Origin: Hyphomonas sp. Mor2
GTDB lineage: Bacteria > Pseudomonadota > Alphaproteobacteria > Caulobacterales > Hyphomonadaceae
DNA: 64,000 nucleotides
Direction of reading: 5' to 3'
Assembly: GCF_001854405.1 (NCBI RefSeq)
Contig: NZ_CP017718.1
Location: 1,240,001 to 1,304,000 of the forward strand
The notes under the pieces: model-generated
What the model saw: only the letters and a program-made list of their open reading frames with translations
Told to the model about the DNA's origin: nothing
Database searches by the model: none
Program-made: the position numbers and the translations under genes
Shown: in pieces, positions 25,258-42,400 of the stretch
How the letters are laid out: the number at the start of each line of letters is the position of its first letter
How positions within the stretch are numbered: the first letter of the stretch is position 1

Positions 25258-26811
25258 ATGGTGACAGCGACCAGCCTTTCCAGTGAACACCCGGAGGACG
25301 TCCTCGGACATCTGTCCAGTTGGTTGGAGTCAGGCCAAAACGGCGCTCTTGTGTTTATAACGGCGACCGAAGGCGGCGCTGTCCGGGCCCCCGGCGCACT
25401 GCTGGCCGTCAGCGAAAAAGCCAGCCTGGGATACATCTCTGGAGGTTGCATCGACGCCGACGTCACGCTGCAGGCCCGAACCGCGTTAGAAAATGGAACA
25501 CCACGCTCGCTTCGCTATGGCGCTGGATCGCCCTTTGTTGATCTGCCTTTGCCTTGCGGCGGCTCAATTGAGGTCTTTATCGCCCCAAACCCGGACCCTG
25601 AAACAATTCAAAAGGCCCATCTGCTCCTCGCAAGCAGACAAGAGATCGAGTTGATCGCGCGTCCAGATGGAACCGTTGCGATAGCGAGCGAGACCGAGCG
25701 ACCCGTGGGTGAGGATCATGTCTTCGTCTACCGCCCCAAACTTCGGCTTCGCATTGCCGGACGCGGTGCGGACGCTCTGGCCCTCGCCCGTATCGGTGAA
25801 TCGGCGGGCTACGCCACGCAGCTGCAGCTGGTCGATGAAGAAGATATAGAGGATGCGCGCGGCGCCGGACTGTCCGCGGTGCAACAACTGGTTTCTCCGA
25901 CGGACCTTCCGGCGGCGAATGACGATGCGTGGACAGCGTTTGTGCTCCTCTTCCATGATCAGGACTGGGAGGTTCCACTGCTTCGCCAGGCGCTGGACGG
26001 CCCGGCTTTCTATATAGGCGCCGTCGGGAGTGCGCGGACCCACGCCAATCGTTGTGCCGCCCTGCGGGCCGCCGGGTGTGCGGATAACGATGTCGCGTTT
26101 GTGCGCGGGCCGATTGGTCTCGTGCCGTCGCTCCGGGATGCGTCTATGCTGGCTGTGTCCACACTTGCTGAAATTGTCGGCGCATTCCCGGCCCGTTCGT
26201 CGAGCCGACGGCCGCGAACGGCATTGCTCATGCTCGCCGCGGGCGCCTCCAGCCGATTTGAGGCCGGTGACAAACTCCTCGCGGAGCTCGACCATCTGAG
26301 TATCCTTGAACGCGCGGCAACACATGTGCCGGATGATCCAGATCTAACCAAAATCGCCGTGGTTCCGTCTGGTCCGACTGAGCGCAAGGCGGTGCTCGAC
26401 CGCCTCGGCTGGCAAACCCTGGAAAATCCGCGCGCTGACCTCGGACAGTCCACGTCTCTCGCGCTGGGCATAGAAGCGATTGAGACAGATGCCAGAATAG
26501 ATCAGGTAATCGTCCTGCTTGCCGATATGCCCTTCGTCCCCGCCTCGCACATTGATAATCTGAGGCTCAGTGCAGACATTCCCAGCACGTCCTGCGTGAT
26601 GTCCGAAAGCAATGATGTTCTATCGCCGCCCGCCTTGTTCAAACGGCAGCACTTTGAGGCGCTGAGATCGCTCGAGGGAGATCGCGGCGCCAAAGCGGTC
26701 TTTCTGGCCATCGAGCATGGCAATGCGACAATCGCTTTGACGCCGGAACAGGCGGCAGATATCGATGTGACCGCCGACCTGGTGCGCGCCAAGGAGACCG
26801 TTCATGCCTGA
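25258..26811 (+). CDS. XdhC-MobA fusion: Mo-hydroxylase maturation factor
   Basis: A 517-residue two-domain protein. Residues 1-315 are XdhC/CoxI-like: the N-terminal block has [13 protein letters not shown] and the [11 protein letters not shown] loop, and the Rossmann part has [20 protein letters not shown]. Residues 320-517 form a MobA/MocA-type nucleotidyltransferase with [21 protein letters not shown] (the GTP/CTP loop, shortened here) and LLADMPFVP. XdhC inserts and sulfurates the cofactor; MocA attaches cytosine to molybdopterin. The fusion would join cofactor finishing and delivery, matching the Mo hydroxylase downstream. It overlaps moaA by 8 bases. Confidence 0.88.
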
Positions 26812-27835
26812 TGGGCTGGCCAAGACAGAGACTGCCCCGTTGGTCGATCAATTCGGTCGCCAGGTGACGTATCTACGTCTGTCGGTCACCGATCGTTGCG
26901 ATTTGCGCTGCACCTATTGCATGGCGGAGCGGATGCAGTTTCTGCCGAAACCGGAATTGCTCACCATTGAAGAGCTGGATCGAGTTGCGTCAGCATTCAT
27001 TCGGCGCGGTGTGCAGAAAATCCGGATCACTGGCGGCGAACCCCTGGTGCGGCGCGGCATGCCGGAGCTGATCGAGCGACTGGGCGGCTATCTCGGGCAT
27101 GGATTGGACGAACTCACCTTGACCACGAACGGGACGCTGTTGGAGCAATTCGCCGAGCTGCTGGTCAAGAATGGCGTGAAACGCATTAATGTCTCGCTGG
27201 ACTCGCTGGATCCCACGGGGTTCGAGAAGATCACACGCCGTGGCAAGCTCGACAGGGTCCTGGCGGGCATCGATGCGGCGCTTGAGGCGGGACTGAAGAT
27301 CAAAATCAATACGGTCGCCCTGAAGCATGAGAATCTCTCCGAGATTCCTGAAATGATTGAATGGGCGCACTCTAAAAGCATGGATCTCACGCTGATCGAG
27401 GTCATGCCGCTTGGCGACACCGGTGAGGATCGAATCGATCAGTACATTCCTCTGCCCATGGTGCGTGATCAGTTGGAAGCGCGCTGGCAATTGGAGGACC
27501 TTCCGGCGGCTGACAGAAATGCCGGTCCATCGCGCTATGCTCGGATCGCGGAAACCGGCGGCAAGCTCGGCTTTATCACGCCGCTCACAAACAATTTCTG
27601 TGCGGGATGCAATCGTGTGCGCGTCACCTGTACCGGTCGGATCTATATGTGCCTGGGACAGGATGACCATATCGATCTGCGCGCTGCAATCCGTGAGTCA
27701 GACGACCCCGATGCCGCGCTGAACGCTTGTCTTGACCGCGCATTGTTCAAGAAGCCAGAGCGCCATGAATTCAACATCAAGGATCGTGGCGAGGCCCCTG
27801 CCCTGCCACGGCACATGTCGGTGACCGGTGGATAA
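26804..27835 (+). CDS. moaA: GTP 3',8-cyclase MoaA
   Basis: A 343-residue radical SAM enzyme that carries out the first step of molybdenum cofactor synthesis, GTP to 3',8-cyclo-GTP. The N-terminal cluster motif is [15 protein letters not shown] (CxxxCxxC, about residues 24-38). The C-terminal cluster that binds GTP is [18 protein letters not shown] (about 267-284), and the essential Gly-Gly end is present (VTGG). The start overlaps the XdhC-MobA gene by 8 bases and the stop overlaps moaD by 1. Confidence 0.97.
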
Positions 27836-28083
27836 TGGCGAAGATTCTGTATTTCGGTCGCCTGAGCGACATTACCGGTGCAGCTGAGGAAGTCCTGTCC
27901 TTACCGGACACAGTGGCCACCGCCGGTGAGCTGCGAACGTTTCTGGATCTGAAGTTTGAGGCCAATGGCGCCTTGCTGGAACCGACCGTCCGTATCGCCG
28001 TCAACAATGAGCTCTGTTTCGACACGGAATCGATCGCCGATTCGGATGAGATCGCCTTCATGCCACCGGTCGGAGGCGGTTAG
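27835..28083 (+). CDS. moaD: Molybdopterin synthase small subunit MoaD
   Basis: An 82-residue ubiquitin-like sulfur carrier. The C-terminus PPVGGG ends in the Gly-Gly that is adenylated and thiocarboxylated before sulfur transfer to cyclic pyranopterin. The start shares one base with the moaA stop (TAATG) and the stop directly abuts moaE. Confidence 0.95.
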   Translation: MAKILYFGRLSDITGAAEEVLSLPDTVATAGELRTFLDLKFEANGALLEPTVRIAVNNELCFDTESIADSDEIAFMPPVGGG

Positions 28084-28545
28084 ATGCTGAACCTAACGGA
28101 GGACTCCCTCGACGCGAGTGCGCTCTTGCAGGCGTTTGAACACTCGGCTCAAGGCGCCGGTGCGATTGTCAGCTTCTCAGGCCTTGTTCGCCCGGAAGCG
28201 ACCGGCGGTGAGGTGCAGGGTCTCTTCCTGCAGGCCTATTCGCCGATGACTGAGAATGGCATCCAGACGGCAATCGATGACGCCAAATCACGATGGCCGC
28301 TGTCGGAGGTCATGGTCGCCCACCGGATCGGCGAAATGAAACCCGGAGATACGATCGTCTTTGTTGCGACAGCGTCAAAGCATCGACGCGCCGCGTTCGA
28401 GGCTGCCGACTTCCTGATGGATTACCTGAAGACCAAAGCGGTGTTCTGGAAACGCGAATCTACTGACCGCGGCGATGCCTGGATCGAGCCTCGCGAGGAA
28501 GATTATTCAGACGCAGATCGCTGGGTCGAAAAGGTCCGGTCGTGA
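28084..28545 (+). CDS. moaE: Molybdopterin synthase catalytic subunit MoaE
   Basis: A 153-residue subunit that works with MoaD to add two sulfurs to cyclic pyranopterin. Typical segments are GAIVSFSGLVRPEATG near the start, HRIGEMKPGDTIVFVAT (about 80-96), HRRAAFEAADFLMDYLKTKA with the catalytic lysines, and FWKRES. It begins immediately after moaD. moaC, moeA and moeB are not in the window. Confidence 0.95.
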   Translation: MLNLTEDSLDASALLQAFEHSAQGAGAIVSFSGLVRPEATGGEVQGLFLQAYSPMTENGIQTAIDDAKSRWPLSEVMVAHRIGEMKPGDTIVFVATASKHRRAAFEAADFLMDYLKTKAVFWKRESTDRGDAWIEPREEDYSDADRWVEKVRS

Positions 28546-28689
28546 CGTAAACCATCGATTGTGATCACGTTCGTCGATTTTCTTTGAGTCTGACCTTTAC
28601 TCGATGAATGATTGGATCATTATTCAAGGTACTGCGTGAAGGAGAGACCTATAGGGGTCCCCGCGTCCAGGTGCTGGAGGATGCACAGA

Positions 28690-29142
28690 ATGGCCACACT
28701 CAAGATCAATGGCAAAACCGTAACAGTGGATGCGTCTGACGACACGCCGCTGCTTTGGGTTATCAGGGAACAGGTCGGACTTACCGGAGCAAAATATGGC
28801 TGCGGGATTGCCCAGTGCGGCACCTGCACGATCCATGTTGATGGCAGCCCGGTCAGATCTTGCGTTTATCCTGTCGGCGCCCTGACGGGTGAGGAAGAAA
28901 TCACGACCATCGAGGGTCTGTCCGAGGATGCGAGCCACCCGGTTCAGGAAGCCTGGGCAGAGCTCGATATCCCGCAATGCGGATACTGCCAGCCAGGCAT
29001 GATCATGGCCGTCGCCGGCATGCTCAACGATAATCCAAATCCGAGTGATGAGGATATTGATGCTGAGATCACCAATATCTGTCGATGCGGCACCCTGGCG
29101 CGCGTGCGCAAGGGCATCAAGCTCGCCGTCGAAAAATCGTAA
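28690..29142 (+). CDS. Mo hydroxylase iron-sulfur subunit (IorA/CoxS type)
   Basis: A 150-residue protein with two [2Fe-2S] domains, passing electrons from the molybdenum subunit. The plant-type ferredoxin cysteines are in CGIAQCGTCTIHVDG (about 42-56). The four-helix domain has CGYCQPG (about 100-106) and CRCG (about 137-140). ATG 28690 was chosen since GGAGG lies at the right distance; ATG 28681 is too near it. The large subunit follows 11 bases later. The substrate may be an N-heterocycle or aldehyde and cannot be told from sequence. Confidence 0.93.
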   Translation: MATLKINGKTVTVDASDDTPLLWVIREQVGLTGAKYGCGIAQCGTCTIHVDGSPVRSCVYPVGALTGEEEITTIEGLSEDASHPVQEAWAELDIPQCGYCQPGMIMAVAGMLNDNPNPSDEDIDAEITNICRCGTLARVRKGIKLAVEKS

Positions 29143-29153
29143 GGGAGACGAAA

Positions 29154-31391
29154 ATGGCTGATACAGGATTACTTTCCCGCCGCGGTTTCATCCTAGGCAC
29201 CGGCGCGACCGGACTGACCATTGGAATTCTCGCAAGCTGTTCTCCAGGAGATCCTGGACCGACCGAAGCGCATACGTCTGGCGTAGATGAAGTAAACGCC
29301 TGGGTGCATATCGATCGCGATGATACAGTCACGGTCCGGATCGCCCGCTCAGAAATGGGACAAGGCACTTTGACCGGGCTCGCGCAACTCGTTGCAGAAG
29401 AGCTTGATGCCGATTGGGACAAGGTCACAACCGTTTATCCGACGCCGGGCGAAAACCTCGCGCGCGAACGCGTCTGGAGGGATTACTCCACGGGTGGGTC
29501 TCAAGGCATTCGCGGCTCGCAGGATTATGTCCGCGAAGGCGCCGCTGCTGCCAAGGCGATGCTGATTGAGGCCGCCGCGAATGAGTGGGAAGTGCCGGTT
29601 TCAGAATGTACTTCTGAAAACAGCGTCATCACGCACGGCCCATCGGGTCGCACGACGACTTATGGCGCGGTCGCAGAGGCAGCCTCACAACTCGCGCCGC
29701 CCATCGAAGTGACCGTCAAGGATCCGAGCGAATGGAAAATCATTGGCCAGCCGAAAAAACGCCTCGACACGGCTGACAAGCTGACGGGGGCGCAAGTCTA
29801 TGGGGCTGATATCAGCCTGGACGACATCCTCAAGGACACTGATGCGACCCCTGACAAACTGCTGAATGCCTCCATTCGGCAGTCTCCCAAGATCGGAGCA
29901 ACGGTCGCATCCTTTGATGCCTCCGCCGTCGAGAACATGCCGGGCGTGCAGAAAGTGGTCGCGCTCAAGAATCCCTTCGGCGAAGGCAACAATGCTGTTG
30001 CCGTCATCGCTGACACCTGGTGGCAGGCGAACACAGCGCTCGATGCCCTTCCAATTGAATGGGAAGGCGGCGTCGATTTCTCAACCGAGGCGTTCGAAGC
30101 CGAACTTGATGATGGATTGACCGCCGAGGAGGCCTTTGTCGGGAATGGCGGCGGCGATCTGGCGACGGCCTTCGCTGAAGCCGATCAGATCATCGAAGCC
30201 ACCTACAATATGCCGTTCCAGAACCATGCCTGTATGGAACCGATGAATACGACAGCCCTCTATACCGAGGAACGGTGTGAAGTCTGGTGTCCGACACAGA
30301 ACGGAGAAGCAGCCTTGGCGGCTGTCTCCGAGGCGTCTGGCTTGGATATCGCCAATTGCGAAGTCTACAAGGTTCACCTCGGTGGCGGTTTTGGGCGCCG
30401 GGGCGCGCCAGATTACGTCCAGCAGGCGGTTATGCTGGCCATGGAAGTGCCCGGTACACCGGTGAAGCTACTTTGGACCCGCGAAGAAGACATGAAGCAC
30501 GGATTCTTCCACCCGACGACAAAGGGACGGATGCGCGGATCGCTGGACGCCGATGGCAATCTGACAGGGATTCATGTGCGCATCTCAGGCCAATCCATCC
30601 TGGCAGCATTGATTCCTCAAGCGCTTCAGAACGGCGTCGACTTTGCGACCTTCCAGGGCTTGCTTCCATCCGGGGTGGATCCACGCGTAGAAGATCAGGT
30701 TCTCAAATATTCATTTGATAACTTCCTGGTCGATCACGCGATGCGGAATCCGCCTGTGCGACCAGGCTTCTGGCGCGGCGTGAACCTGAACCAGAACGCG
30801 ATTTATCTGGAATGCTTCATGGATGAACTGGCGCATGCCGCTGGGCGCGATCCACTGGAATTCCGTCTCGCGCATCTTCAGAACAGCCCGGAAGCAGCTG
30901 CCGTGCTGCAAGCGGTGGCTGATCGCTCGGGCTGGGGTCAGGATGACGGCAAGCATCGCGGGCTCTGCGTCATGTATGGCTTCGGCGCCTATGTTGCGGC
31001 CTGTTCTGAGGTCACGGTTGATGATGATGGCAATCTCTCGATCGATCGCATCGTTGCGGCGACGGATCCCGGTTACGCCGTGAACCCACAGCAAATCGAA
31101 GCGCAGGTTGAGGGCTCTTTCGTCTATGGTCTGTCAGCCATGCTGTTCGGCGTGATCACCTTCGTCGATGGCGTCGCCCAAGAGTCGAACTTTGACACGT
31201 TCAACTCGATGCGGATCGCCGACATGCCTGAGGTCGAAACCATTATCATGCCGTCCGGCGGATTCTGGGGCGGCGTTGGGGAGCCGACCATCGCAGTGGC
31301 CGCCCCTTCGGTGATGAACGCAATTTTCGCCGCAACCGGCAAACGGGTTCGTCAGTTGCCGATCAAGGATCAGAATCTGCGAGATGCCTGA
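29154..31391 (+). CDS. Mo hydroxylase molybdopterin-binding subunit (IorB type)
   Basis: A 745-residue large subunit of the xanthine oxidase family, similar to isoquinoline 1-oxidoreductase beta. The N-terminus has a Tat signal (SRRGFILGTGATG) followed by a lipobox-like ILASC, suggesting an exported, membrane-anchored enzyme. The catalytic glutamate motif GGVGEPTIAVAAP stands near the C-terminus (about 710-722), and GGGFGRRGAPDY is the cofactor-binding block. No FAD subunit is nearby, as in other IorAB-type enzymes that pass electrons to cytochrome c. A cytochrome c gene overlaps its end by 8 bases, which fits that idea. Confidence 0.93.
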   Translation: MADTGLLSRRGFILGTGATGLTIGILASCSPGDPGPTEAHTSGVDEVNAWVHIDRDDTVTVRIARSEMGQGTLTGLAQLVAEELDADWDKVTTVYPTPGENLARERVWRDYSTGGSQGIRGSQDYVREGAAAAKAMLIEAAANEWEVPVSECTSENSVITHGPSGRTTTYGAVAEAASQLAPPIEVTVKDPSEWKIIGQPKKRLDTADKLTGAQVYGADISLDDILKDTDATPDKLLNASIRQSPKIGATVASFDASAVENMPGVQKVVALKNPFGEGNNAVAVIADTWWQANTALDALPIEWEGGVDFSTEAFEAELDDGLTAEEAFVGNGGGDLATAFAEADQIIEATYNMPFQNHACMEPMNTTALYTEERCEVWCPTQNGEAALAAVSEASGLDIANCEVYKVHLGGGFGRRGAPDYVQQAVMLAMEVPGTPVKLLWTREEDMKHGFFHPTTKGRMRGSLDADGNLTGIHVRISGQSILAALIPQALQNGVDFATFQGLLPSGVDPRVEDQVLKYSFDNFLVDHAMRNPPVRPGFWRGVNLNQNAIYLECFMDELAHAAGRDPLEFRLAHLQNSPEAAAVLQAVADRSGWGQDDGKHRGLCVMYGFGAYVAACSEVTVDDDGNLSIDRIVAATDPGYAVNPQQIEAQVEGSFVYGLSAMLFGVITFVDGVAQESNFDTFNSMRIADMPEVETIIMPSGGFWGGVGEPTIAVAAPSVMNAIFAATGKRVRQLPIKDQNLRDA

Positions 31392-31731
31392 TCCTCGTCC
31401 TTTCGCCGCCGCGATCCTGATCAGTCTGTTCGGGATGGCGGCGTGCGACAGCGGCACGTCCCCTGCTGAGACGTCGAATGGCGATGACATCGCGCAGCTG
31501 ACCAACGCCTCGACTGCGCTCGCCATGGCGTGCGGGGGATGTCATTCGGCGCAAAGCGACGCCATGGTCTCACTGGAGGGATACGGCGAGACAGCGATGC
31601 GCGACGCGCTCTTGCGGTATCGATCTGAAACCGAAGGCACCACGGTCATGCATCGCCTGGCGCGCGGATACACGGACCAGGACATCGATCTGCTTGCCAG
31701 GCACTTCAGCCAAGAAGAGGACGGGGAATGA
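31384..31731 (+). CDS. Monohaem cytochrome c lipoprotein (FccA/SoxE-like)
   Basis: A 115-residue exported cytochrome c with one haem-binding site, ACGGCH (about residues 50-55). The leader ends in a lipobox (FGMAAC), so the protein is probably a lipoprotein. The distal part, GTTVMHRLARGYTDQDI, gives a methionine ligand and matches the cytochrome subunit of flavocytochrome c sulfide dehydrogenase. It sits between the Mo hydroxylase and the flavoprotein, overlapping both (8 and 4 bases), and could accept electrons from either. Confidence 0.85.
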   Translation: MPDPRPFAAAILISLFGMAACDSGTSPAETSNGDDIAQLTNASTALAMACGGCHSAQSDAMVSLEGYGETAMRDALLRYRSETEGTTVMHRLARGYTDQDIDLLARHFSQEEDGE

Positions 31732-32999
31732 CGCAATTCGATCGTCGCTTCATGCTCAAGGCGCTCGGCCTTGGCGGCGCATCGCTGGCCCTGCCCGTCC
31801 CGGCTTTCGCGCGCGCGACGGCAAAGATTGTCATTATCGGTGGCGGGTTTGGCGGCGCCAGCGCAGCGCGCATGCTGGCAACGCTGTTACCGTCTTCCAG
31901 CATTACACTGGTCGAAGCCAATGCGCGCTATACAGCCTGTCCGTTCAGCAATCTCGTGCTCGGGACAGATCGCGCGTTAAGCGACCAGGAATTCGGCTAT
32001 GGCGGGCTCACGCAGCTGGGCGTAACCGTCGTGACCGACACGGCGACGGATGTGGACCCCATTTCACGCACCGTGACGCTGCAGAATGCAGATGATCTCA
32101 CCTTTGACCGCCTCATTCTCTCACCCGGCATTGATATGCGCTGGAATGCACTGGAAGGGTATGATGAAGCGGCAGCGCAAGTCTACCCGCATGCCTGGAA
32201 AGCCGGTCCGCAAACCGCCTTGCTGCGCCAGAAGCTCGACGCTCTGGAAGATGGTCAAACCGTGATCATGAGCGTTCCAACTGCCCCGTTCCGATGTCCA
32301 CCGGGGCCGTATGAGCGCGCGAGCATGATCGCGCACTACCTGAAGACCCGAAAACCGCGATCCAAACTCATTGTGCTGGATGCCAAGGACAGTTTTTCGA
32401 AAATGGCGCTGTTTCAGGAAGCCTGGGCGGAGCATTATCCTGATCATCTGGAATGGCGCGGCGCCAGTGATGATGGGACCGTTGCGCGAGTTTCAGCGAG
32501 CTTCGGCGAGGTTGAAACAGATTTCGAGACATTCTCGGCCGGCGCCACCAACGTGATTCCACCTCAAAAAGTCGGGTTCATTGCCGACCGCGCGGGCGTC
32601 AGTGACGCCACCGGCTGGTGCCCGATCGAACCCCTGGCGTTCGAGTCCGTGTTGCAAGCAAATGTGCATGTGATCGGCGACGCAACGATCGCTGCGCCGA
32701 TGCCAAAATCGGCCTTCTCAGCCAATCTTCAGGCCAAGATTTGCGCACTCGGTGTGGCCCGGCTGGTGTCCGGTCTGGGGCCGGAACCCACCGTGCTTGC
32801 CAATACATGTTTCTCCTTCACCACGCCTGATGAAGCCATTTCGATCGCTGGCGTGTATTCGAACGCAGACGGCCAACTCGCCAGTATCTCAGGCGCCGGA
32901 GGGGTCAGTCCGCTTGGGGCCGATCTATCGATCCGCATGCAGGAAGCCGCACAGGCCAGGTCCTGGTTCAATACGATCACGCAGGAGGCGTTTGGCTAA
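31728..32999 (+). CDS. soxF: Flavocytochrome c sulfide dehydrogenase flavoprotein (FccB/SoxF)
   Basis: A 423-residue exported FAD protein. A Tat signal (DRRFMLKALGLGG) is followed by the dinucleotide fold IVIIGGGFGGASAAR (about 34-48). The flavin cysteine region (YTACPFSN, about 68-75) and the redox cysteine pair (FRCPPGPYERAS, about 188-199, and a late NTCFSF) are those of sulfide dehydrogenases that oxidise sulfide to polysulfide. The preceding cytochrome supplies the haem subunit. The stop shares a base with soxX. Confidence 0.9.
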   Translation: MTQFDRRFMLKALGLGGASLALPVPAFARATAKIVIIGGGFGGASAARMLATLLPSSSITLVEANARYTACPFSNLVLGTDRALSDQEFGYGGLTQLGVTVVTDTATDVDPISRTVTLQNADDLTFDRLILSPGIDMRWNALEGYDEAAAQVYPHAWKAGPQTALLRQKLDALEDGQTVIMSVPTAPFRCPPGPYERASMIAHYLKTRKPRSKLIVLDAKDSFSKMALFQEAWAEHYPDHLEWRGASDDGTVARVSASFGEVETDFETFSAGATNVIPPQKVGFIADRAGVSDATGWCPIEPLAFESVLQANVHVIGDATIAAPMPKSAFSANLQAKICALGVARLVSGLGPEPTVLANTCFSFTTPDEAISIAGVYSNADGQLASISGAGGVSPLGADLSIRMQEAAQARSWFNTITQEAFG

Positions 33000-33442
33000 T
33001 GCGTATGGCACTCGTGGCCAGCCTCTGTCTCAGCGCCTGCGGTGTCAGCGAGCCGTCGTTGATCTCGCCAGATCAGATCACCGGCGACGCCATTAACGCG
33101 CCCCTCTCAGACATCCCGGGTGATGCCGTTCGCGGGAAGCAGGTATTTGCTGATCGCGAGGCAGGACACTGCATCCTCTGTCATGCCGTCGCCGGTTTGG
33201 ATGCGGAGTTTCAAGGAAATGTCGGTCCGGACCTCTCCACAGTGGGCGACCGCTTGAGCGCCGGTCAGCTTCGCCTTCGGATCGTGGATTATCAAATTGT
33301 GAGCCCCGGCACCCTGATGCCCTCCTATTATCGAAAACATGACCTACATCAGGTGGGAGACGCCTATTCTGAGGCCACGATTTTGTCAGCTCAGGATATT
33401 GAGGATATTGTCTCTTATCTTGAGCTGCGAAAAGGCGATTGA
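32999..33442 (+). CDS. soxX: SoxX monohaem cytochrome c
   Basis: A 147-residue exported cytochrome, small partner of SoxA in the complex that joins thiosulfate to SoxY. The haem site is CILCH (about residues 58-62), and the distal Met ligand lies in TLMPSYY (about 102-108). Conserved blocks NVGPDLSTVGDR and ILSAQDIEDIVSYLELR fit SoxX. The very short leader ends in a lipobox (LSAC), which is unusual for a protein normally soluble in the periplasm. It begins in the stop codon of the flavoprotein gene. Confidence 0.9.
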   Translation: MRMALVASLCLSACGVSEPSLISPDQITGDAINAPLSDIPGDAVRGKQVFADREAGHCILCHAVAGLDAEFQGNVGPDLSTVGDRLSAGQLRLRIVDYQIVSPGTLMPSYYRKHDLHQVGDAYSEATILSAQDIEDIVSYLELRKGD

Positions 33443-33447
33443 AACCG

Positions 33448-33912
33448 ATGCGCAAGGGCTTGCCAGACCTTAATCGAAGACACCTGCTGACGGCAGGCGC
33501 AGGCGCCGTAATGATCGCCGCATCGCCCTTGCGTAGCTTTGCGGCGCAAGCTGATCTTGAGCGCGCGCGCCGAGAGCTGTTTGGCGATCGCCCCGTTACG
33601 GAGGGCCGTGTCAGTCTGAAATTGCCGCCGATTGCAGAGAACGGGTTCTCGGTCCCTCTGAGCGTGGATATCGACAGTCCGATGACGGCGGACGATTACG
33701 TCAAGCGCGTCGCCATCCTGTCACCGAGAAACCCCCTGCCCCTGATCGCGCAGTATCATTTTTCACCCCAATCGGGCTGCGCCAGCGTTGAGGCCCGCAT
33801 TCGCATGTCAGGCACGCAAACCATTCAGGCGATTGCGGAAATGAGTGATGGTACGCTGTGGTCCGGTAGCCAGGAAACCGTTGTCACGCTCGCCGCGTGC
33901 GTGGTTCTGTGA
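33448..33912 (+). CDS. soxY: SoxY sulfur carrier with atypical C-terminus
   Basis: A 154-residue exported carrier subunit that bears pathway intermediates on a C-terminal cysteine. A Tat signal (NRRHLLTAGAGA) precedes an immunoglobulin-like domain (about 50-150). In nearly all known SoxY the end is Gly-Gly-Cys-Gly-Gly; here it is VTLAACVVL, so the cysteine remains but all flanking glycines are replaced and three residues follow it. No alternative frame gives the usual motif. ATG 33448 is preferred; a TTG at 33439 would overlap soxX. Confidence 0.88.
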   Translation: MRKGLPDLNRRHLLTAGAGAVMIAASPLRSFAAQADLERARRELFGDRPVTEGRVSLKLPPIAENGFSVPLSVDIDSPMTADDYVKRVAILSPRNPLPLIAQYHFSPQSGCASVEARIRMSGTQTIQAIAEMSDGTLWSGSQETVVTLAACVVL

Positions 33913-33922
33913 GGAGAGGCGC

Positions 33923-34243
33923 ATGACCAGTATCCGACTTGCCGTTCCTGAGACCGCCTCCGTCGGCGAAGTGATCGAGGTGAAGGCTCTGATCCGCCAC
34001 CCAATGGAAAGCGGTCACCGGCGCGGCTCCCGCGGGGAGGTGATTCCGCGAGATATCATTACCCGCTTCGAGTGCAAATATGCGGGCAATGTTGTCTTCG
34101 CCGCGGATTTCCATCCAGGGATTGCCGCCAACCCCTTGATCACGTTTTACGTCAAGGCGTCGCAAAGCGGTAATCTCGCGTTTGAGTGGATCGATCAGCA
34201 CGGCGAAAGCTGGTCAGACACTGCAACGCTCAAAGTCACATGA
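33923..34243 (+). CDS. soxZ: SoxZ sulfur-carrier partner
   Basis: A 106-residue protein without signal peptide; SoxZ normally leaves the cell bound to Tat-exported SoxY. Conserved SoxZ segments are VKALIRHPMESGHRR, IPRDIITRFECKYAG and NPLITFYVKASQSG. A strong ribosome site (AGGAGAGG) precedes ATG 33923. Its end overlaps soxA by 4 bases (ATGA). Confidence 0.93.
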   Translation: MTSIRLAVPETASVGEVIEVKALIRHPMESGHRRGSRGEVIPRDIITRFECKYAGNVVFAADFHPGIAANPLITFYVKASQSGNLAFEWIDQHGESWSDTATLKVT

Positions 34244-35019
34244 GGCGCCGCGCCGTAATTGCAGGCACCGCTCTGATCTGCGCCTGCAGCGCACCATCTG
34301 AAGACGTGATTGCAGTCGAATTGGCCCCAGATCAGATCGTCTCTGGTACGGACTTCCTGACCCCTGAAACGCGTGCTCTACAGGCGGATGACTTCGCCAA
34401 TCCAGGTTTTCTCTGGGTCGATCGCGGTGATCAGCTCTTCTCGGAAGCGATCGATACCGGTCCTGCCTGCATCTCTTGTCATGCAGATGGACTGGTCGGC
34501 CTCGCGGCGACTTACCCGGCCTATGATGCGGAGACCAGATCTGTGCTCAACATTGAGGGCCGCATCAATCAGTGCCGCACGAAGCATCAAGGGGCGTCCA
34601 GCCTCGCCTATGAAAGCGACGAGTTGCTGTCTCTGACGGCTTTCGTCTCTCATCAGTCGCGAGGTGTGCCGATTTCAGTAGATCCATCCGGCCCGGCCGC
34701 GTCTGTCTATGAAGACGGCGAGCGTTACTTCCAAACCCGTCGCGGGCAGTTCAATCTGTCTTGTCAGCAATGCCATACGGAAAATTGGGGCAAGCGCCTG
34801 CGCGGCGATACGCTCAGCCAGGGACATGGCAATGGCTTTCCGGCCTATCGCCTGGAATGGCAATCCATGGGCTCGCTGCAAAGACGCCTGCGGGATTGCG
34901 ATACCGGCGTTCGCGCAGAACCCCTGCCCTATGGCGACCCGCTCTATATTGCTGTTGAACTCTATCTCGCCGCCCGCTCCAACGGACTGGAGATGGAAAG
35001 CCCTGCCGTCCGCCGATAA
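34240..35019 (+). CDS. soxA: SoxA dihaem cytochrome c
   Basis: A 259-residue exported cytochrome that, with SoxX, couples thiosulfate to SoxY. Two haem sites are present, CISCH (about 78-82) and CQQCH (about 173-177), making this the dihaem form. The active-site cysteine that carries the persulfide is in RRLRDCDTG (about 225), and GRINQCR and GNGFPAYRLEW are also family blocks. The leader LICACS could be a lipobox. It is the last gene of the run; no soxB or soxCD follows, because a bidirectional terminator and a gene of opposite strand come next. Confidence 0.93.
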   Translation: MRRRAVIAGTALICACSAPSEDVIAVELAPDQIVSGTDFLTPETRALQADDFANPGFLWVDRGDQLFSEAIDTGPACISCHADGLVGLAATYPAYDAETRSVLNIEGRINQCRTKHQGASSLAYESDELLSLTAFVSHQSRGVPISVDPSGPAASVYEDGERYFQTRRGQFNLSCQQCHTENWGKRLRGDTLSQGHGNGFPAYRLEWQSMGSLQRRLRDCDTGVRAEPLPYGDPLYIAVELYLAARSNGLEMESPAVRR

Positions 35020-35070: not shown

Positions 35071-38000
35071 TTAGAACGATGCCTTAACGCCAACGGTCCA
35101 CAGACGGCCGAGTGTCTCATAGGCACTTGGGAATGTGTTACCGAAGTTACGGGCAGTCGAACCAGCGCCGTTACCAACAATCGGAGGCTCTTCGTCGAAG
35201 AGGTTCCGGATGTTCGCAGACAGTACAACGTTCTCGTTGATGTCCCAGCTGCCTGACAGGTCGAAGCGATGCTGAGCATCGATGGTTTCGAACGCGTCAA
35301 ACGTACCAGCACGCTGAGAGTCCTGAATGTCGACTTCACCGAAGTACCGCCACAGCAGAGACGCCGTGTACGGGCCTTTGCGCCATGTGGTGCGCTGGTT
35401 GAAGCGAAGCTCAGGGGTTGGCTGACAGTCATTACCGAAACGACCCAGGCAGTCGATCACCGGAGTGGTGCTCGAAGACTGGCTTTCGTTTGCGGTCTGA
35501 AGTGTCGCGAAGAAGCCAACGCTCAGTTCACCGACTTCGCCCAGATCCCAGTCAGTGTCGACGCTGAAGTCAACGCCTTCTGCCAGACGGTAGTCGAGGT
35601 TGGTGGTGAACAGGTTCACACCGGCGCCTGAAGTCGCGAGCGTACCACTGATACGGTTGATCTTGGCACATTCAGTGATGTCGCCACCGATATAGCAGTT
35701 GTCCAGAACTTCTTGCGGGCTGAACTCACCGATCTCGTCAGTGATCTCGATTTCATAGTAATCGAGGGTCACGAGACCAGAGGTCATGTTGCCGAAAGTT
35801 GGTGTCTGCCAAGTCATACCGATGGTGAACGTGTCACCGGTTTCTGGCTCAGGCAGAGCGTTCGGGTCGGTCCCTTCAAACGTGTTGATCTGGCTCGACA
35901 CGATATCTGGAACGATACCGATCAGCGGCGTGATCACACCGGTAGAGTTACACAGTGTTTGCAGCTGAGGGTTCGCAGCCAGTGCCGATGCGATCAGGCT
36001 TGCCTGAACCGTACCGGTGCCGTCCTGGAACGCTGGGTTACCGTTAGAGCATGGGTCGAAGCTTGCGTCTTCGAGGCCAGTCACGACAGGGCTACCCAGT
36101 TCACCAATGTTTGGTGCACGAACAGCGCGCTGTTGCATGACGCGGAACCGAAGTCCGTCAACGACTTCCCAGTTCAAACCGGCTTTCCAGGTTTCGTTGT
36201 TACCGAACGAAGAATAGTCAGCAGCACGGAAACCAAGTTCCAGCTCGAGGTTCTGAGCAAATTCCATGTCGGTTACGAGTGGAACGAAGGCTTCACCGAA
36301 GAACTCGGTCACGTCGAACGAAGAAGAAATCGGCAGAACAGTACCACCGGCACCACCCAGACAGCTGGTTGGCGGCTCTTTCAAACACTCGTCCGGCGTA
36401 GAAGAACCGATCTCTTCACGATACTCTGCACCGATCGACAGCGAAACAGGGTTTGCTGCAGTTGGGAGCTTCAGGCTTTCGACTGGGCCAAACGCAACTG
36501 CACTGAAGATGTTCTGCTCATAGTCAGACTTCAGGATACCGGTCGCACTGTTCGCAGCCGCCATGGCTGGCGTGATTGACCCGAAACCGGTCGAGAACAA
36601 GTCGATCGGTACACACCCTGCGACGGCTGACGTGGCACCAGGTGCAAGACATTGTGTGGCGTCCGTCGTGTTCAGAGCGTCTGCGAAAGCAGATACGTTC
36701 GTGTATCCGGCGCGGACTTCTGTCCGGTCAGCTTCAGCGTGGGAATAGTACACGTCATAGTCCCAATCGCCCCACAGATCGCCGCGGAGACCGGCAACGA
36801 ACTGGAAGTTGTTGGAATCATAATTGGTTGAACGTGTACCAAGCTCGAGCGTACGACGGCGAACCGGCGCAGTGATCGAGTCGTTCAGGTCGAATACACC
36901 GTTGCTGTTCAGATCGTTGACCCCAGCATCCGCAAACGTCACCAGCGGGTTGGCCGCGAGGAACGTGTTGATGTTGTTGACGATCGTGTTCCGAGCATTG
37001 TCGGACAGGAACGGGTTCTGCAGTGGAATTTCGAAGCGGTTGCCGAACACGCCTGAAGGCGCAACCTGCTGGCGAACATTGATCGCAGCGAAGTTTGCAC
37101 GGGCATAGGCTTCGAAGTGGTTGTTGATCTCATATCGACCGGTCGCCATCGTGACAAAACGCTCTTGCGGCGTTTGCAGATAGTTGAACGGGCTGAAGTT
37201 AAAGCGAGAGCAACGTGGGCCAACGGTACCATCGTTCAGGAACTGAATGGTGCCGCTGAGCAGGTCAATCGCGGTTGGCATGGATGTTGTGGAACCAACA
37301 CCGGTAGAGGCGAGAGTCGCGTTTGGCGCGTCACAGTTAGCAGGTGGGCTGGCAGGCGCGCCGCCAGCGTTCGGGCCGTTTGCGGTCGAAACACCAAACT
37401 CCGAATAGTCACGGTCGCCCAGCAGAACGCCTTTACGATCCGTGAAGTCCAGAGCCAGAGTGACGTTACCGCGACCATTGTCCAGGTTCGCACCGAGCAA
37501 TGTCGACAGGCTGTAGACTTCTGAGTCGCCCCAGAGTTCGCCGTCGCCCTGCTCAGAGAAGCGGTAGCGTGATGCAACTTCGACACCTTCGAAATCGTCT
37601 CTCAGAATGAAGTTGACCGCACCGGCCATCGCGTCAGAACCGTAAACGGCAGACGCACCACCGGTGACCACGTCGATCCGATCCAGCATGATCACTGGGA
37701 TCGCGGAAATGTCGACTTCACCGTCGGTGTCGAATGGAACCATACGCTTACCGTCGACCAGGACGAGTGTCCGCTGGTCGCCGAGGCCGCGCAGGTCAAC
37801 AGATGTCGCACCGGCTGTACCGTTATTGACGTTTTCGTTGTCGCCAGGCAGCGCCACAGGCAGGTCACGGAACAGGCGCTCGACTTCGACCGTTTGGGTC
37901 AGTTCGAATTCTTCCTGTCCAAGTGTGGTGATCGGGCTCGAAGACACGATCCCTGGCGCCTGAATGCGCGTACCGGTGATGATCACCGTATCCTGACGCA

Positions 38001-38124
38001 GGTCATCCGCGTCAATCGCGGAAACAGGAGTCGCAGACTCCGTCTCCTGAGCCATGGCAGGCACGGCATAGAGACCGAATGAAGCACCGGCGATAATCGA
38101 CGACGCAAACAAGCGGCTTTTCAT
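35071..38124 (-). CDS. TonB-dependent receptor, large type (receptor 1)
   Basis: A 1017-residue outer-membrane receptor. The signal peptide ends near PAMAQE (about residue 25). The TonB box is DTVIITGTR (about 43-51). A plug domain follows (SSSPITTLGQEEFE, then VVTGGASAVYGSDAMAGAVNFI), and the 22-strand barrel ends with GVKASF, with a terminal Phe. It resembles the proteobacterial receptors that end with NLFDEEPPIV plus a short strand; the substrate is unknown (sugar, peptide or other). ATG 38124 has a GAGAGGG ribosome site; longer frames lack a leader. Codon use looks optimised for high expression. The upstream region has nested inverted repeats. Confidence 0.92.
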   Translation of the reverse strand: MKSRLFASSIIAGASFGLYAVPAMAQETESATPVSAIDADDLRQDTVIITGTRIQAPGIVSSSPITTLGQEEFELTQTVEVERLFRDLPVALPGDNENVNNGTAGATSVDLRGLGDQRTLVLVDGKRMVPFDTDGEVDISAIPVIMLDRIDVVTGGASAVYGSDAMAGAVNFILRDDFEGVEVASRYRFSEQGDGELWGDSEVYSLSTLLGANLDNGRGNVTLALDFTDRKGVLLGDRDYSEFGVSTANGPNAGGAPASPPANCDAPNATLASTGVGSTTSMPTAIDLLSGTIQFLNDGTVGPRCSRFNFSPFNYLQTPQERFVTMATGRYEINNHFEAYARANFAAINVRQQVAPSGVFGNRFEIPLQNPFLSDNARNTIVNNINTFLAANPLVTFADAGVNDLNSNGVFDLNDSITAPVRRRTLELGTRSTNYDSNNFQFVAGLRGDLWGDWDYDVYYSHAEADRTEVRAGYTNVSAFADALNTTDATQCLAPGATSAVAGCVPIDLFSTGFGSITPAMAAANSATGILKSDYEQNIFSAVAFGPVESLKLPTAANPVSLSIGAEYREEIGSSTPDECLKEPPTSCLGGAGGTVLPISSSFDVTEFFGEAFVPLVTDMEFAQNLELELGFRAADYSSFGNNETWKAGLNWEVVDGLRFRVMQQRAVRAPNIGELGSPVVTGLEDASFDPCSNGNPAFQDGTGTVQASLIASALAANPQLQTLCNSTGVITPLIGIVPDIVSSQINTFEGTDPNALPEPETGDTFTIGMTWQTPTFGNMTSGLVTLDYYEIEITDEIGEFSPQEVLDNCYIGGDITECAKINRISGTLATSGAGVNLFTTNLDYRLAEGVDFSVDTDWDLGEVGELSVGFFATLQTANESQSSSTTPVIDCLGRFGNDCQPTPELRFNQRTTWRKGPYTASLLWRYFGEVDIQDSQRAGTFDAFETIDAQHRFDLSGSWDINENVVLSANIRNLFDEEPPIVGNGAGSTARNFGNTFPSAYETLGRLWTVGVKASF

Positions 38125-38586
38125 TGAATTCCCTCTCACAGTGGAACCTCCGAATGATTGTGATAATTTGCTCAAATACTCGAGCGGCTCGGATTTACCC
38201 GGTCCGAGATTTGGAGACGCTAGGCGAGTGTTCACATTTTCGTCAACATTCCCGCATGTGAGACACTCGGAAAACGATTATACTGTGACTTATTGGCCTC
38301 ACATTTTCTTGGAAACCAGACATTACGCAAATTCTGACCGCATTCGGTTGGTATCCGGGAATAAAACTCCAAGATTTTCTTGCCTCGAGGGAAATCTGCA
38401 ATTCCCGGCACAACTGACCCACTTTATTAGTGCAACGCTCTGAATGCGTTGCGAGATCTACAGCGCCAATCTGAATGCAACATGCAGATAGCCATTGCTT
38501 TTGCCATCTGTTCAGCCTTCTCATGATCTCATAGGTTCAGGTGTGCTCAATCGATGCGAACGAAATAGCCGTGAAAGTATAGTGTC
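38125..38586. promoter_or_regulatory. Regulatory region of receptor 1 with nested inverted repeats
   Basis: This 462-base gap separates receptor 1 from a small exported protein gene. On the minus strand a perfect TATAAT lies at 38282-38277. A TGTGA-N10-TCACA repeat (38284-38303) lies over its -35 side. A larger repeat with 12-base arms (CGAGTGTTCACA at 38225-38236, TGTGA-G-ACACTCG at 38257-38269, one extra base) lies just downstream, and a hairpin CTCGGA-N9-TCCGAG (38188-38208) follows in the leader. A separate repeat GCAACGC/GCGTTGC is at 38432-38452. I found no gene here; a short open frame near 38141-38443 has no support. Confidence 0.45.
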
Positions 38587-39177: not shown

Positions 39178-42100
39178 CTAGAAGCTCAACTTCGCACCAA
39201 CAAAGACAAAGCGGCCCGCCGCTTCATAGACCCCAGCGACCGTATTTCCTTCAATGTTCGCCGTCGGACTAGGACCGAATTGAGGGACAATTGGTGGATC
39301 ATTGTCCAGCACATTGTTGACGCCCGCCCGGAGCTCCACGAATTCATTGACGTCCCAGAAAGCGGCCACGTCAAAATAGTGCTCTCCATCCAGCTTGGAC
39401 GATACCGTATCGATTCCAGCTTCCGCGAACGTTGTGGTTTCGCCGGTCACCGGGTCGATCGCGCTCAGACGCTCAACCGACGAAAGAAAGCGCCACAACA
39501 GATTCGCGCGAACATCCCAGGGCGATTGGTATGCGACCGATACATTGTGAGCGTACTCATATGTCGGGTTCTCGCAGCTCTGATCATAATAACCAACGCA
39601 ATCATATGGCTCGATGCCATCGCGCTCGCTGGTTTCGTTCTCCAGCTGATAGTTTGCGTTATAGTTCAGAGCGACCTGCCCCCACCGATCCAGGTCATGG
39701 CTGTAACCGACGGCGAGATCGATCCCTGAGACATTCAAGAAACCCGTATTAATCGTGCTCGTGTCAATCGCCGCCTGGGCGCGAGGGACTTGGGTGAGCG
39801 ATCCGTCGGTGCCACGATTGATCAGGCTACAGAATTCTTCTTCACCCGTTTCCAAGCAGTTGCTCAGCGTGAACGAGGCTGGCGTAGATCCAATACGGTC
39901 GTTCAACTCGATTTGGTAGTAATCTAGGGAAATCAGGAGATCAGGTATCTGCGCGGGTTGGTAGACAAATCCAAGCGTAATGGTGTCCGCTTCTTCCGGA
40001 GACAAATCTGGGCTCCCGCTGGTTATGATGTTCAACTGACCAGAGTCGGGTGGGATCGCACCGTATTGAGCCTCGCTTACACCCGATCTTGCGCACTGCT
40101 CGAACGTCGCCGTGGGCGCGTCATCAGTCCCCGCGAAACCGGAACAAGGATCGGACAGGCTGCTCAGATTTGTGTTCTGCGGGTTGAACAATTCGAACAC
40201 GTTTGGGGCACGCGTTGCGCGCTGATATTGAGCGCGGAAACGGATCTGGTCGTTCGGTGCCCAGGTCGCACCGACAGAATAGGTATCGACCGAGAAATCA
40301 CCGCCTTCGACTGCGTTCAGAATGTCCACAGACTCGTAACTGGAATTGCGGATAGCCGCGGACAAACCAACTTCCTCCGCGAAATTCATGCCCTGAATGA
40401 GGGGCAATTGGACCTCCGCAAAGTACTCGATCAGGTCCGTCTCACCATTGGTTGGCAGAACGGCGCCGCCAGAGCCGACAAGACCGCCGCTTTGATTGGT
40501 GCCATCAGCCTGTGCTGAGATACCGTCACGACGATACTCGACACCCACCAGGACGTTCGGACCATCTTCCGCCCATGGCGTGGAGATGCCGTAATTGCTG
40601 AGGTCCGTCTGGGTGGTCGCGCCATAAACAAATTGTTCGATCGAGCCAGTTGTCAGAGTTGGCGTGTCGACATAGGCCGCAAGACCCGGATCAACTTCCG
40701 CCCCGACCACGTAGGCCGAAACAAATGGAATACAGTTCGGATCCGTACCATCCAGGAACGACCGACAAACCGGATTTCCGTTGCCATCATCAACGATGTC
40801 CAGAGCGCGGGAAAGATTGACGGATGTCACCTGGTTGGTCTGGATCCGATCAAGCTCTGTTTGGGCGACCTGTCCGAACACGTCCCAGTCAATGTGGTCC
40901 ATGACGGTGCCGCGCAGTCCACCGACAAAACGGAAGTTGGTCAGCGTGCGCGTATCGGTCCGGCCGCCACCTTCGACGAATCGACGTCGAACTTCAGCCT
41001 GAACCAGGCCATCGCCTGCGACGCCACCGGTGCTGGTTTCGATGTCTCGGGTATAGAAGCCTGTATCTGCATCGATCACACCGCAGAAAGCTGCAAGCTG
41101 CTCTGCTGTGAATAACGGATTGTCGCAATTCACTTGATTGATGGAACTACCAAACGCCGCCGAAGGTGCGATCACTTGAGGTGACGTTGACTTGGAAAAG
41201 CCGAACTCCGCATACGCTTCAACGTCCGGCGTGATCTCATAATGGCCCAGGAATCCGGCGTTAAATCGCTCGGTCGCGCGACGAATAGGGTTTTGAGGGT
41301 TAAAGTTGAACGGGTTGTTGAATCCAGACGATAAGGAGTTGTCGCTGTTCAGTGAGTACGCGCCACTCGTAATTGCGGCACCATCGCTATCCGTCAGGAT
41401 TGTGCCATCTGCATTGTAGACGGGAACAGCATCCGCAATAGCTCCGCCTACTGGAATGGCGGGGGATAGCAAGAATGTCGTTGGAAATGGTCCCTGATTT
41501 GATCCCAGACAGGATGGGACGCCACCACTTTCATTTAACGCACAACGCGAAAAGTCTCGTTCACCCTGATCGATGCCCTCATTCTCCGTGTAACGGAAAT
41601 ATACGGTCGCGTTTCCGCGACCATCATCCAGATTGCTCCCCATTACCAAGGACAAGTCGTATGTATCATTTGTGGAATGGTATCCATCCAAGGTGTCTTC
41701 ACCGATGTCGGCGAGGGCAGCCTGAGAAGCGCTGTCCGAATTGTTGAACTGGTTGAAACCATACTGGAGATCCGCTTCAACACCTTCAAAGTCCGATTTC
41801 ATGATAAAGTTGACCACACCGGCGACCGCATCGGACCCGTAAACAGCAGATGCACCGCCAGTCACGATTTCGACGCGCTCGACGAGTGGCGCAGGAACCA
41901 AGTTCACGTCGCTGGCGTATCCGCCTGAAAGGGGGGACCCTGGCGGCAAACGCTTACCATTTGCGAGAACCAATGTCCGCGTGGCCCCCAGGCCACGAAG
42001 ATCAACAGTCGACGTCCCGTTCGCGCCATTCGCGAAGGATGAGTTCTGGCTCAGCGATCCGACATTTGTCTGCGGCAACGCATTGATCAAATCAATCGTA

Positions 42101-42324: not shown

Positions 42325-42345
42325 GTTCTCTCTCTCAATTTTTTC

Positions 42346-42400
42346 AAGACCGACCCACACGGTCTTTTGCGGCGCCGCGGGCTCTCACCCCCGTGGCGCC
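42346..42400 (-). promoter_or_regulatory. Tandem hairpins in the leader of receptor 2
   Basis: Two stems stand 21-76 bases upstream of the start codon. The first is AAGACCG-ACCCACA-CGGTCTT (42346-42366). The second has 11-base arms with one mismatch (GGCGCCGCGGG at 42371-42381, CCCGTGGCGCC at 42390-42400). Neither is followed by a T-tract in the minus direction, so they are not terminators. They could control translation or mRNA stability. Confidence 0.45.

Follow-up and report, generated by a model that had tools for sequence, protein, structure and literature searches.

The canonical Sox thiosulfate system relies on the carrier protein SoxY, which operates with SoxXA, SoxB and, in some cases, SoxCD, and which bears its carrier cysteine on an arm ending in GGCGG. 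The NCBI name SoxY_true_GGCGG (TIGR04488) suggests that curators already hold GGCGG to be the mark of a true SoxY. A disulfide-linked complex of SoxB with SoxYZ has been solved (4uwq, by title), and part of PMC5336275 suggests that the group on the carrier cysteine needs a minimal length to reach the metal ions of SoxB; taken together, these make a tight SoxB site plausible. Carriers of other kinds have also been described. According to sections of PMC11237559, the SoxYZ-S2 and SoxYZ-S4 fusion carriers (cf. TIGR04557) adjoin PQQ alcohol dehydrogenase, XoxF and formate dehydrogenase. The same survey of SoxY deleted sequences that were shorter than 140 aa or had no 'GGC', and because SoxYs without GGC were deleted its tree could not show arms of the AAC type. 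Such arms are the subject of a further profile, TIGR04487 (SoxY_para_1, 'SoxY-related AACIE arm protein'), although the term 'AACIE' was found in no paper in the literature outside subscription papers. The TIGR04487 product name appears on two plasmid records, Neorhizobium galegae CP090555.1 and Methylobacterium NZ_CP087107.1, in both of which the AACIE-arm gene lies beside genes for a 2Fe-2S protein, an FAD oxidoreductase, SoxX, SoxZ and SoxA. A molybdenum (Mo) subunit is annotated in NZ_CP087107.1, and a profile search finds one in both records.

The locus considered here lies in a stretch of 64,000 nucleotides from Hyphomonas sp. Mor2 (NZ_CP017718.1, positions 1,240,001 to 1,304,000), referred to below as the window. 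Its relevant features, in window coordinates, are the following, where FCSD stands for flavocytochrome c sulfide dehydrogenase, XDHS and XDHL for the small and large subunits of the Mo hydroxylase, and xAC for a class of arms that includes AAC.

25258..26811, + strand: fusion of XdhC/CoxI with a MobA-like NTP transferase, for Mo cofactor maturation of the xanthine-oxidase family (Pfam XdhC_CoxI, XdhC_C and NTP_transf_3)
26804..27835, + strand: MoaA, Mo cofactor biosynthesis (Pfam Radical_SAM and Mob_synth_C)
28084..28545, + strand: MoaE, Mo cofactor biosynthesis (Pfam MoaE, 1.2e-34)
28612..29142, + strand: XDHS, the smaller, [2Fe-2S]-binding subunit of a Mo hydroxylase made of two subunits, its start probably ATG 28690 by eye (Pfam Fer2 and Fer2_2; linked to xAC SoxY)
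29085..31391, + strand: XDHL, Mo-binding large subunit, likely start ATG 29154 by eye (Pfam MoCoBD_1/2; PDB sequence search)
31384..31731, + strand: small c-type cytochrome (CGGCH), lipoprotein-like by eye, overlapping the end of XDHL (sequence; synteny)
31728..32999, + strand: FCSD/SoxF-like flavoprotein (Pfam FCSD_central and FCSD-flav_bind; 5n1t, E 2.9e-118)
32999..33442, + strand: SoxX cytochrome c (TIGR04485, 73.7 against a cut-off of 61; 1h31_B)
33448..33912, + strand: SoxY carrier with AACVVL arm (PF13501; TIGR04487, 157.7 bits against a cut-off of 172; fold)
33892..33909, + strand: arm A-A-C-V-V-L, with the carrier cysteine codon at 33898-33900 (codons read)
33923..34243, + strand: SoxZ (TIGR04490, 97.7 against a cut-off of 76)
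34240..35019, + strand: SoxA with two haem motifs (CISCH and CQQCH) and haem-ligand Cys220 (TIGR04484, 220.3 against a cut-off of 110; aligned with 1h31_A)

That the reading frame at 33448 encodes a SoxY is established by its domain score (PF13501, 109.6 bits against a gathering score of 28.4, E 1.2e-31), its predicted fold, a cysteine near the C-terminus and a partner gene for SoxZ; it is the sole PF13501 match in the complete, one-contig genome of 3.63 Mb. The AlphaFold2 model adopts the SoxY fold (mean pLDDT 82, from an alignment of 19 sequences including the window's own) and finds the solved SoxY chains 2nnc and 2oxg as its best Foldseek matches; residues 151-154 fall below pLDDT 50, several alignment rows ending at or near the cysteine and the arm being poorly sampled. 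By eye, the protein carries a twin-arginine-like signal. The codons at 33892-33912 read GCC GCG TGC GTG GTT CTG TGA, that is A-A-C-V-V-L and a stop, giving the C-terminus TLAACVVL with the cysteine fourth from the end, as against third from the end in GGCGG. The original prediction, that AACVVL stands in place of GGCGG with the carrier cysteine kept, is therefore confirmed by the codons. It had also claimed that no canonical motif is concealed nearby, and neither GGC nor GGCGG occurs in any of the six frames of 33500-34300 on both strands, which rules out a hidden motif or a frameshift.

Among the NCBIfam profiles, the best match is TIGR04487, with the score under the cut-off given above. TIGR04488 reaches 107.2 bits against a cut-off of 125, and with the terminal GGCGG absent the protein falls outside the family of true SoxYs. 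The window SoxY does not reach the TIGR04487 cut-off, but same-genus proteins of genomes G140 (185.2) and G170 (182.6) lie above it, and the window SoxY shares the main xAC clade, described below, with the AAC SoxYs of G854, G870 and G973 (225-233 bits with TIGR04487). It thus has its AAC arm, clade and gene neighbours in common with above-cut-off members of TIGR04487; the arm is of the same kind, but the tail after the cysteine is VVL and not IE.

The run from 28612 to 35019 is tight and on one strand, several neighbouring genes sharing a few bases, and the Mo cofactor genes lie directly upstream (25258-28545), so that cofactor genes for such an enzyme are found next door. XDHS and XDHL have the MoCoBD domains, the 2Fe-2S subunit and the catalytic glutamate of the xanthine-oxidase family; the glutamate motif G-x-GEP reads GVGEP in the window, and the pattern occurs in 67 of 74 XDHL copies from xAC loci. 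The closest solved structure to XDHL is the large subunit of the aldehyde dehydrogenase 8gy3, from Gluconobacter (17-766 of 768 aligned, E 1.7e-77). Like the two-subunit Mo hydroxylases of this family, represented by 8gy3_C, XDHL thus aligns over nearly its full length with the glutamate kept; the window's enzyme is distinguished by its linkage to SoxXYZA. Xanthine dehydrogenase proper was rejected as an identity, the curated NCBIfam XDH models scoring far under their cut-offs and the nearest structure being an aldehyde dehydrogenase. A twin-arginine-like signal is visible by eye in XDHL (TIGR01409, 14.8 bits, slightly below the cut-off of 16.7), and to judge from this signal the Mo hydroxylase would be exported. 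The FCSD flavoprotein has the motifs CPPGPYERA and TCFS, which align with 5n1t, and, as in FCSD (5n1t, 3vrd, 1fcd) and SoxEF, it is preceded by a small cytochrome; this cytochrome matches no Pfam family and lies before FCSD in most named loci, while FCSD itself is missing from some modules.

In comparison with a canonical SoxY accompanied by SoxXA, SoxB and (SoxCD), the window retains the fold, the carrier cysteine and the genes for SoxZ, SoxX and SoxA, with the haem-ligand cysteine of SoxXA in place. This ligand cysteine and both haem motifs are present in all 70 xAC-locus SoxAs compared, among matches of at least 150 bits. In contrast to the canonical thiosulfate system, the carrier has no GGCGG, and in the genome SoxB gives no match at E<=1e-3 and SoxC none above the cut-off (best 193.4 bits against 420). 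Downstream of SoxA lie two large open reading frames on the - strand; that at 39178-42360 has TonB-dependent receptor domains, and that at 35071-38235 resembles such a receptor by eye.

The arm of the window is shared throughout the order. TIGR04487 matches 34 of 299 order genomes (E<=1e-3), 9 of them over the cut-off, and at the 30 order loci whose arms were read, the window's own included and those of G279, G215 and G130 left out of the count, every arm ends VTLAAC[VIL][VI][GLD]; a 31st, in G198 (L218), ends VTLAACVVL. A sequence error or local mutation is ruled out by VTLAAC being common to all 30, and close relatives do not carry the GGCGG that would have pointed to one. SoxB exceeds its cut-off in none of the 299 order genomes, and even at E<=1e-3 the 34 with TIGR04487 yield no match to SoxB. 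The clade with an AAC arm and without SoxB that had been foreseen is accordingly present, but its proposed status as a new subfamily does not stand, as TIGR04487 has already been named. The AAC arm has thus been conserved within a family that is known by name but apparently unstudied.

A scan of the contig collection supplied 47 named loci, 34 with AAC and 13 with GGCGG arms. The AAC loci belong to Hyphomonas, Henriciella, Ponticaulis, other Hyphomonadaceae or unplaced Alphaproteobacteria in 33 cases and to a Rhodospirillales MAG (L155) in one. XDHL accompanies 32 of the 34 and SoxB none; the two loci without the Mo subunit are L138, where the fetched DNA begins 1.6 kb upstream of SoxY, and L144. 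At the GGCGG loci these proportions are reversed, with SoxB at 12 of 13 (not L153) and a Mo hydroxylase at none.

The same division extends across the class, and the main result, read from gene content, is that the glycines flanking the carrier cysteine track SoxB. The class sample comprised 385 alphaproteobacterial genomes, with PF13501 in 102 and SoxB over its curated cut-off in 38; draft genomes in the samples may miss genes. Arms were read for 129 of the 144 listed SoxY matches together with G000 and G001, 13 weak matches (<=76.9 bits) being left out, and the 129 class SoxYs divide into 52 GGC arms, 43 xAC arms, 32 YZ fusions, one SGC and one without cysteine. Exact GGCGG ends were found in SoxB genomes in 40 of 41 cases and other GGC ends in none of 11; nine of the 43 xAC arms are in SoxB genomes, all of which also hold a SoxY with a GGC arm. 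For the 100 class genomes with arms read, all 38 with SoxB carry an exact-GGCGG SoxY and 38 of the 39 with GGCGG have SoxB, while SoxB is found in none of the 61 with only other arms. The lone GGCGG genome without SoxB over the cut-off, G646 (L078), is a draft of about 440 contigs. When independent pairs were drawn on the starred branches of the SoxY tree, five or six of seven agreed with the association of GGCGG and SoxB and none opposed it (median p 0.03).

The xAC arms have a different neighbour. At well-flanked class loci, defined as those where the DNA extends 3 kb or more both ways from SoxY, a Mo hydroxylase subunit is present at 29 of 34 xAC loci, 0 of 23 GGC loci and 0 of 22 YZ fusions; the corresponding figures are 0/34, 15/23 and 0/22 for SoxB, 26/34, 15/23 and 0/22 for SoxA, and 17/34, 5/23 and 1/22 for FCSD. 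Fisher tests of xAC against GGC loci, in which kinship is ignored, give p = 2e-11 where presence of the Mo enzyme is compared and p = 2e-8 where that of SoxB is. In a sample of the phylum, all nine fetched xAC loci have a Mo hydroxylase and none has SoxB, as against 0 and 3 of the 11 other fetched loci; four of the nine come from small genomes outside the class and are without FCSD. That the AAC SoxY has different partners is thus suggested by gene neighbourhood at the named, class and phylum loci alike. The carrier is also accompanied by a particular form of the enzyme. In 12 chosen xAC genomes, including that of the window, the XDHL closest to that of the window matches it at 56-100% identity (56-73% in the 11 others) and lies beside an xAC SoxY in 10 of these 11, the 71% copy of G388 being away from both of its SoxYs; other full-length copies in the 12 genomes are at most 40% identical, with partial segments up to 48%, and four chosen SoxB genomes without xAC have XDHL at 37-40% or none. 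In the main clade the core module, as judged from gene order, is XDHS-XDHL-SoxX-SoxY-SoxZ-SoxA, often with FCSD and without SoxB. What is new here is the genomic rule linking GGCGG to SoxB together with the Mo-hydroxylase-SoxXYZA module. Both are absent from the portions consulted of PMC11237559, PMC5336275, PMC9861301 and PMC10654063 and from the matches listed, and among the matches listed in a search of literature outside subscription papers none describes a Mo hydroxylase with SoxXYZA in its title or the start of its abstract.

Carriers without SoxB also occur in other settings. The SoxYZ fusions with GGC-SAP-like arms (L049, L054, L056, L072, L074 and others, 32 matches in the class) belong to the quinoprotein-dehydrogenase-associated type (TIGR04557); like the window SoxY they are carriers placed by carbon-compound dehydrogenases, but they differ in having Y and Z fused and an arm of the GGC-SAP type. 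At L284, L288, L290, L291, L293 and L301, and in the class at L077, L089 and L110, SoxYZ stands beside FCSD and a small cytochrome, with no SoxXA or SoxB detected in the fetched stretch and with arms such as TNGC, AAGGC, ASGC and GGCA. This arrangement suggests that FCSD loads SoxYZ directly at these loci, which would make them a further SoxB-less type of carrier.

The history of the arm was examined in a tree of 129 SoxY sequences from which the arm had been removed. The xAC label requires three changes on this tree. With groups named after the first tree had been seen, a single origin of all 64 xAC arms is rejected (p-AU 1e-4), and a main xAC clade of 57 that includes the window is not (p-AU 0.24). 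By these sequence trees, then, the arm has changed at least twice. A second xAC group, clade B, consists of GAC-S, GAC-GG and L195, and its members hold the other module genes less regularly: at well-flanked loci, the Mo hydroxylase is found at 24 of 25 in the main clade and 5 of 9 in clade B, and SoxA at 23 of 25 and 3 of 9. For the independent pairs of xAC and XDH, only one starred pair was available, too few to support the link between them, for which the evidence comes mainly from a single clade. Support for the main Sox-linked clade is 99 in a quick XDHL tree; outside it fall the XDHLs of L201 and L196, both of clade B, that of L204, and at L127 and L139 the outer of the two tandem copies (a second XDHL tree leaves out L204, L241, L243 and L245). 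From these positions, the link to the Mo enzyme may have arisen more than once. The Henriciella loci L127 and L139 have tandem XDHS-XDHL pairs upstream of their Sox genes, the outer XDHL being of the other clade, with L201 of group B.

The partnership of Mo hydroxylase and carrier is not strict. Relatives of XDHL at 56-59% identity occur on plasmids of Methylosinus trichosporium, Sinorhizobium meliloti, S. fredii and Rhizobium sp. 007 (L297-L300), with no Sox genes within about 7 kb; three of them were placed in the second XDHL tree, also a quick one, and fall within the Sox-linked clade. These relatives indicate that the Mo enzyme can probably do its work with no carrier, at least in those bacteria. 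The Methylosinus copy adjoins an arylsulfatase and a multihaem cytochrome.

On balance, we consider it rather probable that the window SoxY is not a damaged canonical SoxY and instead is the carrier of a SoxB-independent Sox module, loaded by SoxXA and serving FCSD and/or the Mo hydroxylase. Such a module is supported by the counts of GGCGG with SoxB and of xAC with the Mo enzyme, by the XDHL identities, by the SoxA motifs and by the Mo cofactor genes upstream. More generally, the xAC carriers, which mostly lie beside a Mo enzyme instead of SoxB, probably serve a different sulfur pathway, as far as gene neighbourhoods can tell. In the mechanism that we propose, SoxXA would conjugate a thiol or sulfide-derived sulfur onto the AAC cysteine in the usual manner. 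With no unloading by SoxB, the glycine-flanked tip that fits SoxB would be free of selection and could have given way to AAC and a short tail. SoxY would give its load to FCSD or receive it from there, at loci that have one, and would probably hand it on to the Mo hydroxylase.

Our first choice among the versions of the mechanism, held at well short of even confidence, is the oxidation of organosulfur compounds, in which the Mo enzyme would oxidise the carbon part (at the carbonyl level) and SoxXA/SoxYZ with FCSD would take the sulfur. A second Sox pathway, which we regard as less likely than not, might then be envisaged, in which SoxXA loads organosulfur or sulfane groups on AAC SoxYZ for delivery to the exported Mo hydroxylase instead of SoxB/SoxCD, FCSD is an optional outlet, and GGCGG is a docking tag for SoxB, such that the arm tells which enzyme is served. 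To our knowledge, xanthine-oxidase-family enzymes act on sp2 carbon and not on S-linked sp3 carbon, which counts against the best explanation. It is further weakened by the Sox-free XDHL relatives, the losses in clade B, the single starred pair, the presence of FCSD at only 17 of 34 loci and the want of a link to methanethiol oxidase; this last candidate was dropped after PF05694 was found in 2 of 15 xAC genomes and 1 of 4 GGC-only genomes.

Ranked next, and in our estimation unlikely, is that the locus handles sulfide only: FCSD would oxidise sulfide and load SoxYZ with the assistance of SoxXA, and the Mo hydroxylase would be an aldehyde dehydrogenase with no part in this, an accidental neighbour found in the same operon because both feed c-type cytochromes. 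The occurrence of FCSD at half of the well-flanked xAC loci, its position next to SoxYZ at several loci that have neither SoxB nor SoxXA, and the existence of the Mo enzyme without Sox neighbours are all in keeping with this. However, xAC carriers at well-flanked loci are accompanied more regularly by the Mo enzyme than by FCSD (29/34 against 17/34), and four f217 xAC modules (L279-L282), L283 and many class loci have kept it with FCSD absent.

Two readings appear less probable still. The carrier might maintain the Mo enzyme without bringing it substrate, a SoxY persulfide made by SoxXA or FCSD serving to re-sulfurate the sulfido ligand of the exported hydroxylase. The enzyme beside the carrier belongs to the xanthine-oxidase family, XdhC-type maturation and Mo cofactor genes lie in the window, and the clade B SoxYs of L201 and L196 stand beside Mo hydroxylases of other clades, as would be expected of a general service factor; activity in this family requires the sulfido ligand, according to part of PMC3877041. 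Rhizobial members of the enzyme subfamily, however, have no Sox genes nearby. Sulfuration of Mo enzymes normally takes place in the cytoplasm with export afterwards, and we know of no precedent for re-sulfuration of a Mo cofactor by SoxY, both of which count against this proposal and leave it improbable. About equally improbable is a truncated thiosulfate oxidation, in which thiosulfate would remain the substrate of the module and the role of SoxB would fall to another hydrolase. Family scores show SoxX, SoxA and SoxZ to be intact, the SoxA motifs are kept, and a passage of PMC11237559 offers a precedent in Sulfurimonas CVO, where SoxH stood in for SoxB. Yet the loss of GGCGG accompanies the absence of SoxB, and coarse clustering of the reading frames of 44 xAC loci yields no labelled common family besides the Sox, Mo and FCSD genes, a clustering whose largest cluster merges 596 frames and whose next unlabelled ones, of 74 and 22 and possibly reverse-strand shadow frames, could hide a shared hydrolase, which might equally be encoded elsewhere in the genome. 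Decay of the motif after loss of SoxB, with SoxY drifting to a pseudogene, would suit a genome without SoxB but is very improbable, given that VTLAAC is invariant at the order loci read, that SoxA has preserved its ligand and haem motifs and that distant Alphaproteobacteria, as well as four genomes outside the class, have xAC arms with these same gene neighbours.

Sox genes, soxY among them, are commonly taken as a sign of thiosulfate oxidation in genome and metagenome surveys. If SoxB goes only with GGCGG, and xAC arms mostly with a Mo hydroxylase, many of the 'sox-positive' Alphaproteobacteria, along with some other Proteobacteria, would be without the thiosulfate-hydrolysing step and would run something else, and the sequence of the arm provides a simple test by which each SoxY can be assigned to a pathway. 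Organisms that carry the module, and in which its substrate can be sought, are found in Hyphomonas, Henriciella, Ponticaulis, Methylobacterium and Neorhizobium. Should the reading as a second pathway be true, a terminal GGCGG would not be a general feature of SoxY.
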